From: Spirosoma sp. SC4-14
GTDB lineage: Bacteria > Bacteroidota > Bacteroidia > Cytophagales > Spirosomataceae
NCBI RefSeq assembly: GCF_037201965.1
Contig: NZ_CP147518.1
Coordinates: 3,651,001-3,715,000, forward strand
Reading direction: 5' to 3'
Length of the DNA: 64,000 bases
A model generated the notes under the pieces. That model made no database searches. It was not told the origin of the DNA and saw nothing but the letters and a program-made list of their open reading frames with translations. A program made the position numbers and the translations under genes. Below are positions 4,232 to 30,871 of this stretch, in pieces (the stretch's first letter is position 1; each line of letters starts with the position of its first letter).

Positions 4232-4884
4232 AGCACATTCCCATTGTGTTGCCCCCCCATAAACTCGAAGCAGTTCTTGCCGATCGGGCAACACAGGTAC
4301 GCATTCCGCTGGTCCCACAACCGGCCCCACCCCTCAACGCCTTTTACCCACCCAGTCCATTTCGGAAAGGATTCGAGTTTTACGTATATACTACTTCGTT
4401 AGAGGAGTCAGCACTACGGAAATACCCCGAAATCCATTGCCCGTATGGCAAACGGGGTGATTACCTGTATGTTCAGGAAGAGTGGAGCACTATTGGTGTG
4501 AGGAGCCGGGACTACATTTTAAAGGCCACTACGCCTAGTGGTTCGATCACCGATCGGAGCCGAACCCAACCCTGGCAACCCGCAACGACGATGCCGAAAC
4601 GGGTGGCACGGCTATGGCTGAAGGTCGCCCATGTGACCATTGAGCGGGCTCATGCGATTGGCAAGGCGGGAGCATTGTGCGAAGGGTTCACGCCCTTAGC
4701 CGAATACAACATACCTGGCTTTGCACCGGCCTATGTGAATTATGCAGGGGAAGGCAATTCGTATTGCTTAGGGGCCCGTGTTGCCTTTAAACAGTGGTTC
4801 ATATCGGTTTATGGCCAGGCCGTTTATGATACCAACCCCTGGCTATGGGCTATCAGTTTTAACCGTATTCATTCCCCCTTATGA
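4228..4884 (+). CDS. ASCH-like phage protein
   Basis: 218 residues. It follows the pattern of a widespread phage family with an ASCH-like fold. An N-terminal KLEAVLADRATQVRIPL corresponds to the family's 'AILxGRKTQTRR' segment. Next come CPYGKRGDYLYVQEEWS (family CPYGxxGDxLWVRETW), MPKRVARLWLKVAHVTIERA (family MPRWASRIxLEIxxVxVERL) and a C-terminal NPWLWAISFNRI (family NPWVWVIEFxR). ASCH domains are thought to bind RNA or modified nucleosides; the phage role is not known. It overlaps both neighbours by ATGA and so is coupled to the replication initiator. Confidence 0.75.
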   Translation: MKHIPIVLPPHKLEAVLADRATQVRIPLVPQPAPPLNAFYPPSPFRKGFEFYVYTTSLEESALRKYPEIHCPYGKRGDYLYVQEEWSTIGVRSRDYILKATTPSGSITDRSRTQPWQPATTMPKRVARLWLKVAHVTIERAHAIGKAGALCEGFTPLAEYNIPGFAPAYVNYAGEGNSYCLGARVAFKQWFISVYGQAVYDTNPWLWAISFNRIHSPL

Positions 4885-5960
4885 AGGGCTATCAGTTAAC
4901 CAAAGCGTTCTACGCAGAACATAGCACCAATGAAGCGATGCAGATTGGGTGTACAGGGAATCACCATTCTCTATACACCTGGATTTGTGAATTGCGGAAC
5001 CAGATACAAACCCGTAATCCGGGCCGTGAAGTCATGGACTTACCAACCCGGTACACGATGGCCATGGCCTTTATCGGCTCCGACCATACGCTCAAGAAGT
5101 GTATCAACCACCTGGCAGAATGGGGCATCATTGAGATCGTTTCCAAGGAAGGCGGTAAGGTAACGAAAGTAAAATTGGCGGCTGAATACCTCAACAGACA
5201 CAGCCTGCTAGAGGATAATGAACCGTCGCAATTATGCGACAGTGACGAAAGTGGCGAAGACCTGGAAAATGACTGTCGCAAAAATGCGATTCAAGTGCGA
5301 CAGTCGACAGAAGGCGACTCCGAATTGTCGGCTGAACCGTCGCAGATATGCGATTTAAGTGCGACAGTTCAGCCGACCGAACCCGCCCAACTGTCGCATA
5401 TTTGCGATTTAGGTGCGACAGTTGATCAAATTAGCCCTTTCCAACTGTCGCAAATATGCGATTTAGGTGCGACAGTCGGCAAAAATGACGATCCTGAACT
5501 GTCGCATATTTGCGATTTAAGTGCGAACAACAAAAACAATATAAAACAGAATAGATATATATTAGGGGGTGTGTCAAAAAAAAATGAAGTCGATCCTCCT
5601 ATCGACCCTCAAGACGCTTCATCACCAACAGCCCTTCCGACTCAACCCGTACCGACACCGACACCCATTGACACGGCCGTCAAACACAACACGGCCGGTC
5701 GGATGATCAAGCCTACTCTCGAAGAACTGACGGCCTATGTGCTTACCCAGGCTGGAGGCACCATACCGATGGCGGAAACCATGTTTGACTTTTACACCTC
5801 GAAAGGCTGGAAAGTTGGCAGGGAAACCATGAAAGACTGGAATGCCGCAGCCCGGCGATGGGTCCGCGAAAACAAAGACAAACCCACTACCCACATCCCT
5901 ACGCCCCAAAACCCAACAACCACCGCTAAACGCCCGACGGCTCCGGGCCAACTCCGATGA
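4881..5960 (+). CDS. Phage replication initiator with origin iterons in its gene
   Basis: 359 residues. Residues 1-110 look like a winged-helix DNA-binding domain: the segments MQIGCTGNHHSLYTWI, TRYTMAMAFIGSDHTLKKCI and GIIEIVSKEGGKVTKVKL suit a replication initiator. Residues 114-217 are a low-complexity linker made of repeats (S[QH]ICDL[GS]AT) encoded by the iterons. The C-terminal part (about 270-340) is a helical domain ending in WNAAARRWVRENKDK, like the end of DnaD/phage O-type proteins that load the helicase. It overlaps dnaB by ATGA. Gene order initiator-helicase equals lambda O-P. Inference: it binds the iterons, melts the AT-rich tract at 5525-5590 and recruits the helicase. Confidence 0.8.
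   Translation: MKGYQLTKAFYAEHSTNEAMQIGCTGNHHSLYTWICELRNQIQTRNPGREVMDLPTRYTMAMAFIGSDHTLKKCINHLAEWGIIEIVSKEGGKVTKVKLAAEYLNRHSLLEDNEPSQLCDSDESGEDLENDCRKNAIQVRQSTEGDSELSAEPSQICDLSATVQPTEPAQLSHICDLGATVDQISPFQLSQICDLGATVGKNDDPELSHICDLSANNKNNIKQNRYILGGVSKKNEVDPPIDPQDASSPTALPTQPVPTPTPIDTAVKHNTAGRMIKPTLEELTAYVLTQAGGTIPMAETMFDFYTSKGWKVGRETMKDWNAAARRWVRENKDKPTTHIPTPQNPTTTAKRPTAPGQLR
5223..5530. repeat. Iteron array, predicted phage replication origin
   Basis: Five 33-bp copies start at 5272, 5336, 5390, 5444 and 5498; a 21-bp shortened copy lies at 5223-5243. Each full copy has outer arms ACTGTCGCA and TGCGACAGT (inverted repeats) plus an inner TGCGAT. Copy 3 has ACCGTCGCA in the left arm, and the last copy ends GCGAACAA, so its right arm is incomplete. 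The last four are spaced exactly 54 bp, about five helical turns; the first step is 64 bp. The first full copy is therefore read in a different frame (DCRKNAIQVRQS) from the others (SQICDLGATV), so conservation is at the DNA level. Location inside the initiator gene parallels lambda ori in O. Confidence 0.8.
5525..5590. other. AT-rich tract, candidate DNA unwinding element
   Basis: Directly after the last iteron the sequence becomes strongly AT-rich (for example ACAATATAAAACAGAATAGA and later ATATATATTA, then a run of nine A), in an otherwise GC-balanced gene. In iteron origins the unwinding element usually flanks the iterons in this way. Function is inferred from position and composition. 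Confidence 0.6.
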
Positions 5961-7351
5961 ACACCGAACTTATGCCGAATTACCTGATCAACGTGGATGA
6001 GCAGCTCGAAGCTATGCTTCTTGGCTCTGTGCTCAATGCCCCGCACTTGACAGGTAACCTGCTCAAGTACATCAAAAAACCGAGTGTATTCTATAACCCA
6101 CGTCACCAGGCCGTGTATAAAGCGCTGTCCACATTGTATCAGCAAGGCGATCCGATTGACCTGGTCTTAGTCAATCGCTGGCTACAATCGAACCAGGCCG
6201 ATAATAGCATCGATGCGTACTACCTGTCTGACTTGGTCAATCAAGGCCATTTGACGGGAATCGATCGGCATTGCCTGCAACTTTTCAAGCTGGCCATCAA
6301 ACGTTACCTGGGTCAATATGGTGGTGAACTACGGCGTAAAGCCATGGAGCCGCATACCGATCCGCTTGAGCTGATCAATTTGCTTACTGCTGATGTCGAT
6401 ACGATTCTGGGAGCCATTAGCTCCATGCAGGAAAAGTCGGCGAAGGATTTCCTAAAAGAGGTTTTCAACGATCTGGAAGATAAACAGGCTGGTCGCAAAC
6501 GGGGCTTAACGTTCGGTGTTACCGATCTTGACGATCGCGTCGGTGGATTTGCACCGGGCAATTACGTCGTTTTAGCCGCTGGTACAGGTATGGGTAAAAC
6601 CGGTTTTATGGTGCATGTGATCCGTCATCAGTGCCTGGTTGAACAAAACCCGATCGGTGTTGTCACCCTGGAGATGACTGGGGCCGAGTATATGGCCCGA
6701 CTCGTAGCCGCAGAGTCTGATTACTCCAACTCGCAACTGAACCGGGCCAATGTCGATATCGATACGCTTTACCAGCGAACGCAACGTCTGGTTAATATGC
6801 CGCTGCACATTCACGACAAACCCCTTGAGTCAGTCGAGTTGCAGTACATTATCCGGGAATGGGTACGCCGGAAGAAAGTGAAGATGGTGGTACTCGATTA
6901 CCTTCAATTGGTGAAGGACTCACGCTATCCAGCACGTATCGACCGGGTTTCCAACCTCAGCATGGATCTAAAGGCCCTGGCTGGTGAATTAGGCATTGTC
7001 ATCGTTGCCATTTCACAGCTAAACCGGGATTTTGAAAAGCGTAAAGACTTCGACAAACGGCCTATGCTGTCGGATTTGAAAGAAAGTAGCCAGCTTGAAC
7101 AGGATGCTACAGCGGTTCTGTTTTTGTTCCGGCCCTTCAAGTATGGCTTGCAGTATGAAGACGGTTCGGCCGATGTCCACACCATGGAGCTTCACGGTCT
7201 GAAGTTCCGAGGGGCCCAGCCTACCGACCGGCACGAGCCCTGGCTACTCGACTATGATGGTGCCTGTAATCGTGTAGCTCGGTTTGGCTCCTTAAAGTAT
7301 GGTCGCTTAACACCCCTGTCCGAATTGGACGATGTAGACCCTCAGTTTTAA
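5957..7351 (+). CDS. dnaB: Replicative DNA helicase, DnaB family
   Basis: 464 residues, the normal DnaB length. The N-terminal domain (about 10-120) contains EQLEAMLLGSVLNAP and FYNPRHQAVYKALSTLYQQG, typical of DnaB-N. The C-terminal RecA-like domain has Walker A GTGMGKT (209-215), the segment GVVTLEMT (H1a-like), Walker B KMVVLDYLQLV (about 306-316) and AISQLNRDFEKR followed by LKESSQLEQDATAVLFLFR, the DnaB motif 3/4 region. It is the hexameric 5'-3' helicase of the phage fork, presumably loaded by the initiator encoded just upstream (ATGA overlap). A phage rather than host copy is indicated by operon context. Confidence 0.95.
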   Translation: MNTELMPNYLINVDEQLEAMLLGSVLNAPHLTGNLLKYIKKPSVFYNPRHQAVYKALSTLYQQGDPIDLVLVNRWLQSNQADNSIDAYYLSDLVNQGHLTGIDRHCLQLFKLAIKRYLGQYGGELRRKAMEPHTDPLELINLLTADVDTILGAISSMQEKSAKDFLKEVFNDLEDKQAGRKRGLTFGVTDLDDRVGGFAPGNYVVLAAGTGMGKTGFMVHVIRHQCLVEQNPIGVVTLEMTGAEYMARLVAAESDYSNSQLNRANVDIDTLYQRTQRLVNMPLHIHDKPLESVELQYIIREWVRRKKVKMVVLDYLQLVKDSRYPARIDRVSNLSMDLKALAGELGIVIVAISQLNRDFEKRKDFDKRPMLSDLKESSQLEQDATAVLFLFRPFKYGLQYEDGSADVHTMELHGLKFRGAQPTDRHEPWLLDYDGACNRVARFGSLKYGRLTPLSELDDVDPQF

Positions 7352-12726: not shown

Positions 12727-13733
12727 TGGCAGATTACGGAACCTTCACCCTCAACGCCTTGCGACCCAATGGTACCGGTGTCTATGATGCTCAGGTACGC
12801 ATATTGAATGCAAGCCTCGTTGATGTAACATCTGTTCTATTTGGTGTTGCGTCCGGCCGTACTGATTCGTCCGGCAACGTAACCAAGTGGCTGACTTCGA
12901 CCGATCATTTGGAATTTGGGCAAACGTATACCATTCAGGTTATTGCCCATGGTTTCGAATTGTGGGAAACGGAAACCTCAACAGCCTTCAACGGTAATGG
13001 CCAATTCACGGCTAACCTGATACCACTACCTGCCAGTACTGATTATACGATTACCGAACCGGCTGACGGCCCCTTGTCATCGATGGAGCCGATTATTTGC
13101 CTGGTCACTTCGCCAAATGACTTTGACTTCGAATACATCAATGCTATAGTCGAACACCCGGACGGCAAGGTATCGATCTCGCAGGGTATCGTTGATAAAG
13201 CCGAATTAACCGCGACGATCGATATACGTAACCGGGTTACCCTGGGCGTTCGTCCGTTACTGGTTTCGGCTCCAGCTCACACCCGAGAAGATACCGAGTT
13301 TTCAACAAAAGTTGATGTAACGTTTTCGTCAATCAGTCCCGAGGCTGAAACCCCGATACCTGGCTCATTCAGTCGACTGGTTGCTCATACCGAATCGCCC
13401 GAAGGTGAAACCGACCTTTCGAGTTACGCTAGTCTATCAAACCAACGTTGGATCGTTCCCGCCGAACCGGTGATTGCTTTTCGAGGCTACTACCGCGATG
13501 TCATGTTCTGGCTTACCGCTCCAAGCTTAAGCGGCTACATCCTGGCAGCTACCTTTTATGATGCTGATGGCCAGGTGGTCAACACAACAACGACTGATTT
13601 AGTCGAAAGTGACTATGTACAGCGCTACCAGATTGATACGAACCCGGCCGATACTGTGGTAAAGGCTGTTTTAGTCATTCTTTCGGGCGAATCTCCGATT
13701 ACCAAACAATTAACTGTCCTGTATCGTGATTAA
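12726..13733 (+). CDS. Tail-associated beta-sandwich protein
   Basis: 335 residues, beta-rich. Residues 1-95 look like a carboxypeptidase-regulatory-type fold (GTGVYDAQVRILNASL; SGRTDSSGNVTKWL; FGQTYTIQVIAHGFELWE), used in adhesion and appendage proteins. The rest is a series of beta strands without known motif. It lies immediately before the tail-fibre-like gene and overlaps it by 8 nt. Likely a virion surface or baseplate component (inference). Confidence 0.6.
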   Translation: MADYGTFTLNALRPNGTGVYDAQVRILNASLVDVTSVLFGVASGRTDSSGNVTKWLTSTDHLEFGQTYTIQVIAHGFELWETETSTAFNGNGQFTANLIPLPASTDYTITEPADGPLSSMEPIICLVTSPNDFDFEYINAIVEHPDGKVSISQGIVDKAELTATIDIRNRVTLGVRPLLVSAPAHTREDTEFSTKVDVTFSSISPEAETPIPGSFSRLVAHTESPEGETDLSSYASLSNQRWIVPAEPVIAFRGYYRDVMFWLTAPSLSGYILAATFYDADGQVVNTTTTDLVESDYVQRYQIDTNPADTVVKAVLVILSGESPITKQLTVLYRD

Positions 13734-30779: not shown

Positions 30780-30784
30780 ATTTG

Positions 30785-30871
30785 CAGAGAGCGAGGGATT
30801 CGAACCCCCGGTACCCTTGCGAGTACTTCTGATTTCGAATCAGACCCGTTCGACCACTCCGGCAGCTCTCT
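30785..30871 (-). tRNA. tRNA-Ser (anticodon CGA)
   Basis: Read leftward, the acceptor stem AGAGAGC (30,871-30,865) pairs with GCTCTCT near 30,786-30,792, discriminator G. The anticodon stem TCTGA/TCAGA encloses loop TTCGAAA, giving anticodon CGA. A long variable arm (AGTACTCGCAAGGGTACC) is the mark of class II tRNA-Ser. The T arm has GGTTCGAATCC. CCA is not encoded. Its 3' end faces the phage block, so it is a probable integration site. Confidence 0.93.

Follow-up and report, generated by a model that had tools for sequence, protein, structure and literature searches.

The window – the whole 64-kb stretch of DNA analysed here – covers positions 3,651,001-3,715,000 of a larger contig in an 8.1-Mb host genome, and its left part carries a prophage whose genes include those for an antirepressor, the initiator, DnaB helicase and terminase, with protease and portal genes farther right. 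The gene order between 8070 and 27944 looked unusual, running from the terminase (8.1-10.5 kb) through a weak tail-fibre match (13.7-16.1 kb) and the head protease (23.0-24.2 kb) to the portal (26.8-27.9 kb). The sole tRNA found in the window, a tRNA-Ser (CGA) at 30784-30871 on the minus strand, lies to the right of the portal gene and is possibly an attachment site. The initiator gene is adjoined by dnaB, as an earlier note on this DNA had reported; dnaB follows directly and overlaps the end of the initiator gene (Table 1).

Table 1. Positions of the initiator gene, its parts, the embedded array and the neighbouring helicase gene in the window
Feature	Position	Strand	Details
Initiator gene, origin-bearing (predicted)	4881..5960	+	ORF, 359 aa
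N-terminal winged-helix DNA-binding domain (aa 1-110), predicted	4881..5210	+	AlphaFold2, Foldseek
Cluster 1 (short, inverted pair only)	5222..5243	+	TCGCA 5226, TGCGA 5235; 18/33 to consensus
Cluster 2 (shifted frame)	5272..5304	+	TCGCA 5276, TGCGA 5285 and 5296; 28/33 to consensus
Cluster 3	5336..5368	+	TCGCA 5340, TGCGA 5349 and 5360; 29/33 to consensus
Cluster 4	5390..5422	+	TCGCA 5394, TGCGA 5403 and 5414; 33/33 to consensus
Cluster 5	5444..5476	+	TCGCA 5448, TGCGA 5457 and 5468; 31/33 to consensus
Cluster 6 (without last CAGT)	5498..5530	+	TCGCA 5502, TGCGA 5511 and 5522; 28/33
Candidate unwinding tract	5526..5566	+	80% A+T, 71% A+C on this strand; AAAC 5534 and 5544
C-terminal module, proposed helicase-recruiting part	5697..5894	+	phrog_15768, 2.5e-16
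DnaB-type replicative helicase	5957..7351	+	Pfam DnaB_C 4.2e-55, DnaB 3.3e-15

The initiator protein has no Pfam match above the cut-off, the only trace being a sub-threshold match to GntR. Residues 1-110 are modelled by AlphaFold2 as a block with pLDDT 87-98, a confident winged helix, and the top Foldseek rows for this domain are mostly winged-helix proteins at E values of 0.04 and above, the first being 4pql. Chains of 4pql, 4pt7 and 5kbj, which we take to be RepA_N initiator proteins, fill five of the 20 best-ranked rows (probability 0.96-0.99, weak E values of 0.04-0.13) and are mixed with other winged-helix proteins; a profile of the N-terminal domain searched against the sequences of solved structures gave nothing at E≤1. 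Most of the linker that follows falls below pLDDT 50. The C-terminal module is modelled as a small helical fold (mean pLDDT 86) and is common, by tblastn, to replication proteins of Porphyromonas, Psychrobacter and Vibrio phages. Because it has no match in the PDB at E≤0.001 (best 3.7), its proposed tie to helicase recruitment is drawn from gene context only.

Six clusters of TGCGA and TCGCA half-sites lie at 5222-5530, with starts 50, 64, 54, 54 and 54 bp apart, and the exact 54-bp spacing of the last four is as the earlier note gave it. A full cluster reads TCGCA-N4-TGCGA-N6-TGCGA, that is, a dyad plus one further direct half-site, with the direct ones 11 bp apart. The array itself thus stands, but the earlier count of five 33-bp repeats and one short copy becomes four full clusters, one truncated at its 3′ end and one short; the final half-site of cluster 6 extends into the A-rich tract. 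Tandem Repeats Finder returned the array as its sole entry in the 64 kb. The motif GTCGCANNNNTGCGA has six forward matches and one reverse match in the whole host genome, all inside the array (the same motif read backwards, as a control, has 2 and 4), and the dyad is absent elsewhere in the 8.1-Mb genome. The difference between the 64- and 54-bp spacings, 10 bp, is close to one helical turn. A period of 10.75 bp fits ten of the 11 direct half-sites with a vector length of 0.99 (0.85 with all 11, and 0.42 for the ten at 10.5 bp), a fit that is descriptive and no test because the 54-bp unit itself repeats.

Copies 1 and 3-6 share a reading frame and encode the peptide xLSxICDLxATV; copy 2, out of frame with these, encodes NDCRKNAIQVRQS instead. 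Its DNA is nonetheless identical at 30 of 33 bases to one of copies 3-5, in agreement with the earlier claim that the 64-bp-spaced copy encodes a different peptide and keeps its DNA. In 5,000 synonymous redraws of the copy 2 peptide the likeness averaged 23.8 and never exceeded 29, so that it derives in large part, though not wholly, from the peptide. The half-sites at 5226-5526 number 17 (11 TGCGA and 6 TCGCA) and use all three frames together. By comparison, 5,000 synonymous shuffles within the segment gave a mean of 8.5 and at most 15, and 5,000 synonymous redraws by phage codon usage a mean of 4.2 and at most 12. The earlier proposal of selection on DNA is borne out by this excess over every shuffle, by copy 2 lying beyond its redraws, and by the lag excess in relatives described below.

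Relatives were sought both with the whole initiator protein and with the N-terminal profile, and were matched in 6 of 36 genomes of the genus, 17 and 23 of 222 of the family, 48 of 390 of the order and 22 of 395 of the class. The genome sets overlap one another, and the faintest of the matches may belong to different proteins. In the order-genome search, 30 of the 60 matches listed had loci, and the rest were used only if located by another search. Viral loci numbered 2 and 13, one more locus came from a genome-contig collection by peptide pattern, and plasmid records held no relative at E≤1e-3. A relative is present in Fibrisoma montanum, which makes a Spirosoma-like member of the Bacteroidota the probable host, and the nearest relatives share 40-67% identity across the N-terminal part. 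Initially 56 loci were entered, with L040 and L080 excluded as duplicates of L011 and L035, and six near-duplicates were then removed. Four of 21 class-search loci were also removed (L098 and L115, contig end; L104 and L108, short ORFs with no linker), giving a final set of 67 that forms 11 groups at 50% N-terminal identity. The loci are related, so counts pooled over all 67 are not independent.

At 1e-3, 17 N-termini of relatives had no PHROG match, with weak sub-threshold Pfam matches only, to GntR (2) and DUF4364 (1), and ten whole relatives, mostly from other groups, had no Pfam match. Five of these ten match the unnamed phrog_15768, as the window protein does, and the N-terminal part of one (L062) weakly matches the PHROG 'replication initiation O-like' (1.1e-5). 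By eye, the C-terminal parts vary among relatives of like N-terminus.

Local repeats in the 240 nt past the N-terminal domain of the 67 loci were compared with 100 synonymous-codon shuffles that keep the protein. Pooled counts reach 361 at lag 11 (115±15 in shuffles), 389 at lag 23 (105±16), 201 and 221 at lags 34 and 35 (61±10 and 65±12) and 212 at lag 46 (65±12), none of which was attained in any of the 100 shuffles; lag 12 gives 588 against 364±22. Slight excesses occur at lags 10 (59 vs 36), 21 (85 vs 64) and 28 (55 vs 37), and lags 13, 25 and 38 show no excess over shuffles in the 67 loci. Upstream (n=67) and downstream (n=66) of the array, the coding segments of these genes have no comparable comb at these lags, the C-terminal segments showing a small excess at lags 18, 24, 36 and 57 that was reached by 1, 2, 1 and 0 of 100 shuffles. 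Scored singly over lags not divisible by three, 35 of 67 loci are significant at p≤0.01 and 45 at p≤0.05, against 3 and 4 at control lags; the remaining 32 are not significant at p≤0.01, and five of the 11 groups hold at least one locus at that level and six hold none. The window itself is negative (p=0.62), because its sites are clustered and only 240 nt were scored, and in L051, L052, L055, L065 and others, selection on DNA and on peptide are inseparable because the repeats are strictly 12 bp and in frame.

In many relatives the array occupies the same position, directly after the N-terminal domain, and consists of short direct repeats of differing words. What is conserved is a half-site of 5-7 bp every 11-12 bp or so, about one helical turn; the word itself varies by lineage, with TGCGA, TGCAA, TACGA, TACGG, TGTAC/TGAAC and GCACTTGACAAA all represented. 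A period of 11 bp is found with TGCAAT in L035-L038, TACGATTGC in L058, ACGGA in L041, and TGTAC/TGAAC in L042 and L059, and these 11-bp arrays pass through all three frames. A large second group (e.g. L043-L048, L062, L088, L090, L091 and L095) has GCA or GCAC words at 11 and 12 bp. Because the layout is kept as the word changes, what is preserved is the DNA and not the encoded peptide alone.

The dyad is similarly retained. The ten loci of the window's group contain 23 dyads of 5 bp separated by a 4-bp gap, where protein-preserving shuffles have 6.0±2.2 and none of the 100 attained 23. A dyad of the locus's own word is found in eight of the ten, the window included (TCGCA-N4-TGCGA, TTGCA-N4-TGCAA or GTTCA-N4-TGAAC), and seven of those eight have one where the N-terminal domain ends and the array begins; neither L041 nor L058 has an own-word dyad. 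The earlier note had asked of relatives whether the iterons are conserved when the protein differs, and in these eight loci the dyad is kept while its word and the encoded peptide change. The opposite pattern, of peptide repeats kept and dyads lost, was not seen in this nearest group. A group of 20 loci has dyads at gap 5 (16 vs 6.2±2.2) and a group of six at gaps 4 and 6 (8 vs 3.0 and 11 vs 3.8); a group of 23 has no clear excess at gap 4 or 5 (11 vs 8.9, 14 vs 10.9), with weaker excesses at gaps 6, 8 and 11. The window cluster is thus one version of a layout of dyad plus direct sites whose word differs, on both arms of the dyad, from locus to locus. The 33-mer put forward earlier is likewise a particular case of this broader layout, in which direct half-sites at 11-12-bp intervals come after a dyad.

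Clusters of the window type also occur in a remnant (L020/L116; G014:C1:1588000-1606000, 12920-13480), spaced 53, 64, 75 and 75 bp apart, and these spacings, like the 54 and 64 bp of the window, step by about one helical turn. In this remnant of a related initiator, TACGATTGC-type sites accompany the end of an N-terminal domain and the window-type clusters come next. Some of these clusters are of TGCGA type and others of TGCAA type, the inverted half-sites agreeing with the direct ones within a cluster; an intact initiator with the word TGCAAA lies 11 kb away. Across ten loci, the first residues of the predicted recognition helix pair with the word: Asp-His with TGCGA, Asp-Lys with TACGA or TACGG, Gln-His with TGCAA, and Pro-Ser and Pro-Val with TGTAC or TGAAC. 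This pairing is a lead only, because independent events are few. In L092 (a Porphyromonas phage) and L094 (a Vibrio phage), which share only the C-terminal module, the repeat search finds no array in the gene. The gene of L093 (Psychrobacter phage vB_PmaS_Y8A) likewise has only that module in common with the window initiator, and TGACAG dyads about 17-22 bp apart were seen by eye at 943-1020, where the repeat search gave none; the embedded-origin layout may thus also occur outside the Bacteroidota.

The AT-rich tract that the earlier note placed after the last repeat is present, and in the window it has only two AAAC, 10 nt apart. At least three AAAC within 60 nt are found in 61 of the 67 loci, and the mean over all 67 is 4.19 against 2.85 in 200 synonymous shuffles; taken singly, only 21 of 67 exceed their shuffles at p≤0.05. 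Successive AAAC are 8 or 9 nt apart in 126 of 215 cases, spacings that protein-preserving shuffles favour too, though less, and AAAC falls in each of the three frames (75, 90 and 116). Among 5-mers, TAAAC is the most strongly over-represented (132 vs 72.5). The tracts of the 61 loci are 70% A+T and 72% A+C, compared with 56% and 57% for the genes, and by a crude measure the array precedes the tract in 46 of 61. The complement of the window tract contains TTGT, which the cited part of one account lists among single-strand motifs reported for E. coli DnaA (PMC10797057). A promoter-like match (10/12) at 5548-5577 on the minus strand lies in and just past the AT-rich tract; the regional count of such matches is at chance, and Bacteroidota promoters differ.

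For 13 relatives the following gene was taken as the longest frame near the initiator's end and scanned against Pfam and/or PHROGs. Seven are followed by DnaB (L079, L081 and L082), a DnaC-like loader (L083 and L091) or a primase-helicase (L084 and L116), and the other six (L085, L086, L087, L088, L089 and L090) by genes with no named replication match in these libraries. Annotation of the following gene in three named phages that share the C-terminal module gives a DnaC-like helicase loader, replication protein P or a DnaB-like helicase. There is no clear switch in GC skew at the array.

By far the best reading of these data is that the array is a prophage replication origin located inside its own initiator gene, as in lambda O or the RepA_N plasmids; this is a prediction that we consider very probably correct, and the array is likewise the predicted target of the initiator protein. 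The main competing view, that a repeated linker peptide (xLSxICDLxATV) is selected and the DNA repeats merely follow, draws on the common frame and peptide of copies 3-6 and on the 12-bp in-frame repeats of several relatives. As the only cause it is refuted by the out-of-frame copy 2, by half-sites in all three frames and by the excess of DNA repeats over protein-preserving shuffles; the passage of relatives' 11-bp arrays through all three frames and the low pLDDT of most of the linker also count against it, and we judge it very unlikely. A hairpin element acting as RNA or single-stranded DNA, such as an attenuator or a single-strand initiation site, would account for dyads that recur in relatives and for the folding of window positions 5219-5560 as RNA, which is far better than in shuffles (z -9.2) because of the dyads. 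However, in five relatives the folding of the array shows no clear advantage over shuffles (z -0.5, -0.5, -0.7, -1.0 and +1.7), Rfam gives no match, and the direct half-sites are left without a role, so there is scant probability of an explanation of this kind.

Operator arrays exist, and the initiator gene has antirepressor and helix-turn-helix genes in the same run, as might be expected if the initiator or a repressor bound the array as an autoregulatory operator or silencer of the early operon, with no origin function. Promoter-like matches are not in excess (4 found, 4.0 expected; Bacteroidota promoters differ), and two further points speak against such control: by a crude test an A/C-rich tract comes after the array in 46 of 61 loci, and the neighbouring gene encodes a helicase, loader or primase-helicase in 7 of 13 relatives. 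We therefore regard it as very improbable. A centromere-like partition site, in which short direct repeats are bound by a winged-helix protein as in TubR-tubC, has the precedent that TubR is itself a winged-helix protein coating direct repeats, as the cited section describes it (PMC5016525). Against this, ten genes from the left part of the window have no Pfam match to ParM, TubZ or ParA, and the array sits inside a gene with a replication-type C-terminal module and beside DnaB, making a partition role extremely unlikely.

If the array is the replication origin, the winged-helix N-terminal domain would bind half-sites of 5-7 bp (TGCGA here), which are spaced about one helical turn apart, and this spacing would align bound initiator copies along one side of the DNA. 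The clusters, each a dyad and one direct site, would hold the helical register, with 54 bp amounting to five turns and 64 bp to six. The resulting nucleoprotein array may strain the adjacent A/C-rich tract and so open it, and, in the most speculative step, the repeated AAAC or its T-rich complement might hold the initiator or a loader on single-stranded DNA. The C-terminal module would recruit the phage helicase encoded next door, as its modularity and the gene order suggest. The linker peptide encoded by the array would be largely a by-product: its model has the low confidence typical of disordered stretches, and its sequence differs greatly from one relative to the next.

A broader proposal, which we offer tentatively and think somewhat unlikely to hold in full, is that these proteins form a widespread class of Bacteroidota phage initiators, largely unnamed in family libraries, with a two-part DNA ruler. 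In the first part, half-sites 11-12 bp apart would be coated by a winged-helix filament that underwinds the duplex (11-12 rather than 10.5 bp per turn); in the second, AAAC every 8-9 nt on the opened strand would serve helicase loading. The word would change with the recognition helix, so that new replication specificities could arise without changing the ruler.

To our knowledge, few Bacteroidota phage origins have been mapped, and the one-turn array with its AAAC tract offers a signature from which origins might be recognised in genome sequences. The natural variants in words and recognition helices make initiator specificity, helical phasing and the hand-over from duplex to single strand directly testable, and the locus clearly illustrates a gene that has to satisfy two codes together, one for protein and one in helix-phased DNA, the latter shaping the linker. 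Among the top-ranked papers of our open-access literature searches we found no description of one-turn half-site arrays with changing words and an 8-9-nt AAAC tract, nor of such arrays in Bacteroidota phage initiator genes.

In lambda, iterons and an AT-rich tract lie in the middle of the O gene, according to the cited part of PMC7466680, and the same mid-gene order of iterons followed by an AT-rich tract, strand-asymmetric in lambda, extends to its Stx phage relatives in the sections cited (PMC7466680, PMC5043065). The window shares with this type the placement of sites inside the initiator gene between the N- and C-terminal domains, the inverted-repeat iterons, and the strand-asymmetric AT-rich tract with the composition given above. 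In lambda, O dimers bind iterons that are inverted repeats; here the dyad is followed by direct half-sites one turn apart, which go beyond the lambda pattern. The neighbouring gene in lambda encodes the P loader, but here it encodes DnaB itself, with a DnaC-like loader in two of 13 relatives. The earlier assignment to a lambda O-type origin is therefore upheld for layout and not for sequence membership, the Pfam phage replication protein O family matching neither the window protein nor any of 17 N-termini and ten whole relatives.

TubR-tubC resembles the arrangement proposed here in that a winged-helix protein coats short direct repeats, in the portion of the source cited (PMC5016525), but it serves partition from a site outside the gene, and no motor protein was seen among the ten window genes scanned. 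For the Rep protein of pSK41, the cited extract describes a winged-helix N-terminus, a linker dispensable as protein and a genus-specific C-terminal domain, with four Rep boxes midway along the rep gene (PMC5703833). The window initiator has a predicted winged-helix N-terminus and candidate sites in mid-gene, and the C-terminal parts of its relatives differ by eye; pSK41 has four boxes where many short sites are found here, and the RepA_N Pfam domain has no match in the window protein or in the scanned relatives (17 N-termini, ten whole). The proposed origin would operate in the manner of lambda O or RepA_N, but the window protein belongs to neither family by Pfam. Iterons on plasmids typically span some 22 bp and sit outside the rep gene. 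The Rep_3 proteins have at least two winged helices; the window initiator has one by prediction, and no Rep_3 Pfam match. The iterons of RK2, F and P1 are direct repeats, generally in helix phase and beside an AT-rich tract that in RK2 and others carries repeats of its own, as set out in the cited passages (PMC5043065, PMC10797057), and in its helix-phased direct repeats beside an AT-rich tract the window array is like them. With lambda O, pSK41 Rep and helix-phased plasmid iterons already described, the principle is therefore a known one.
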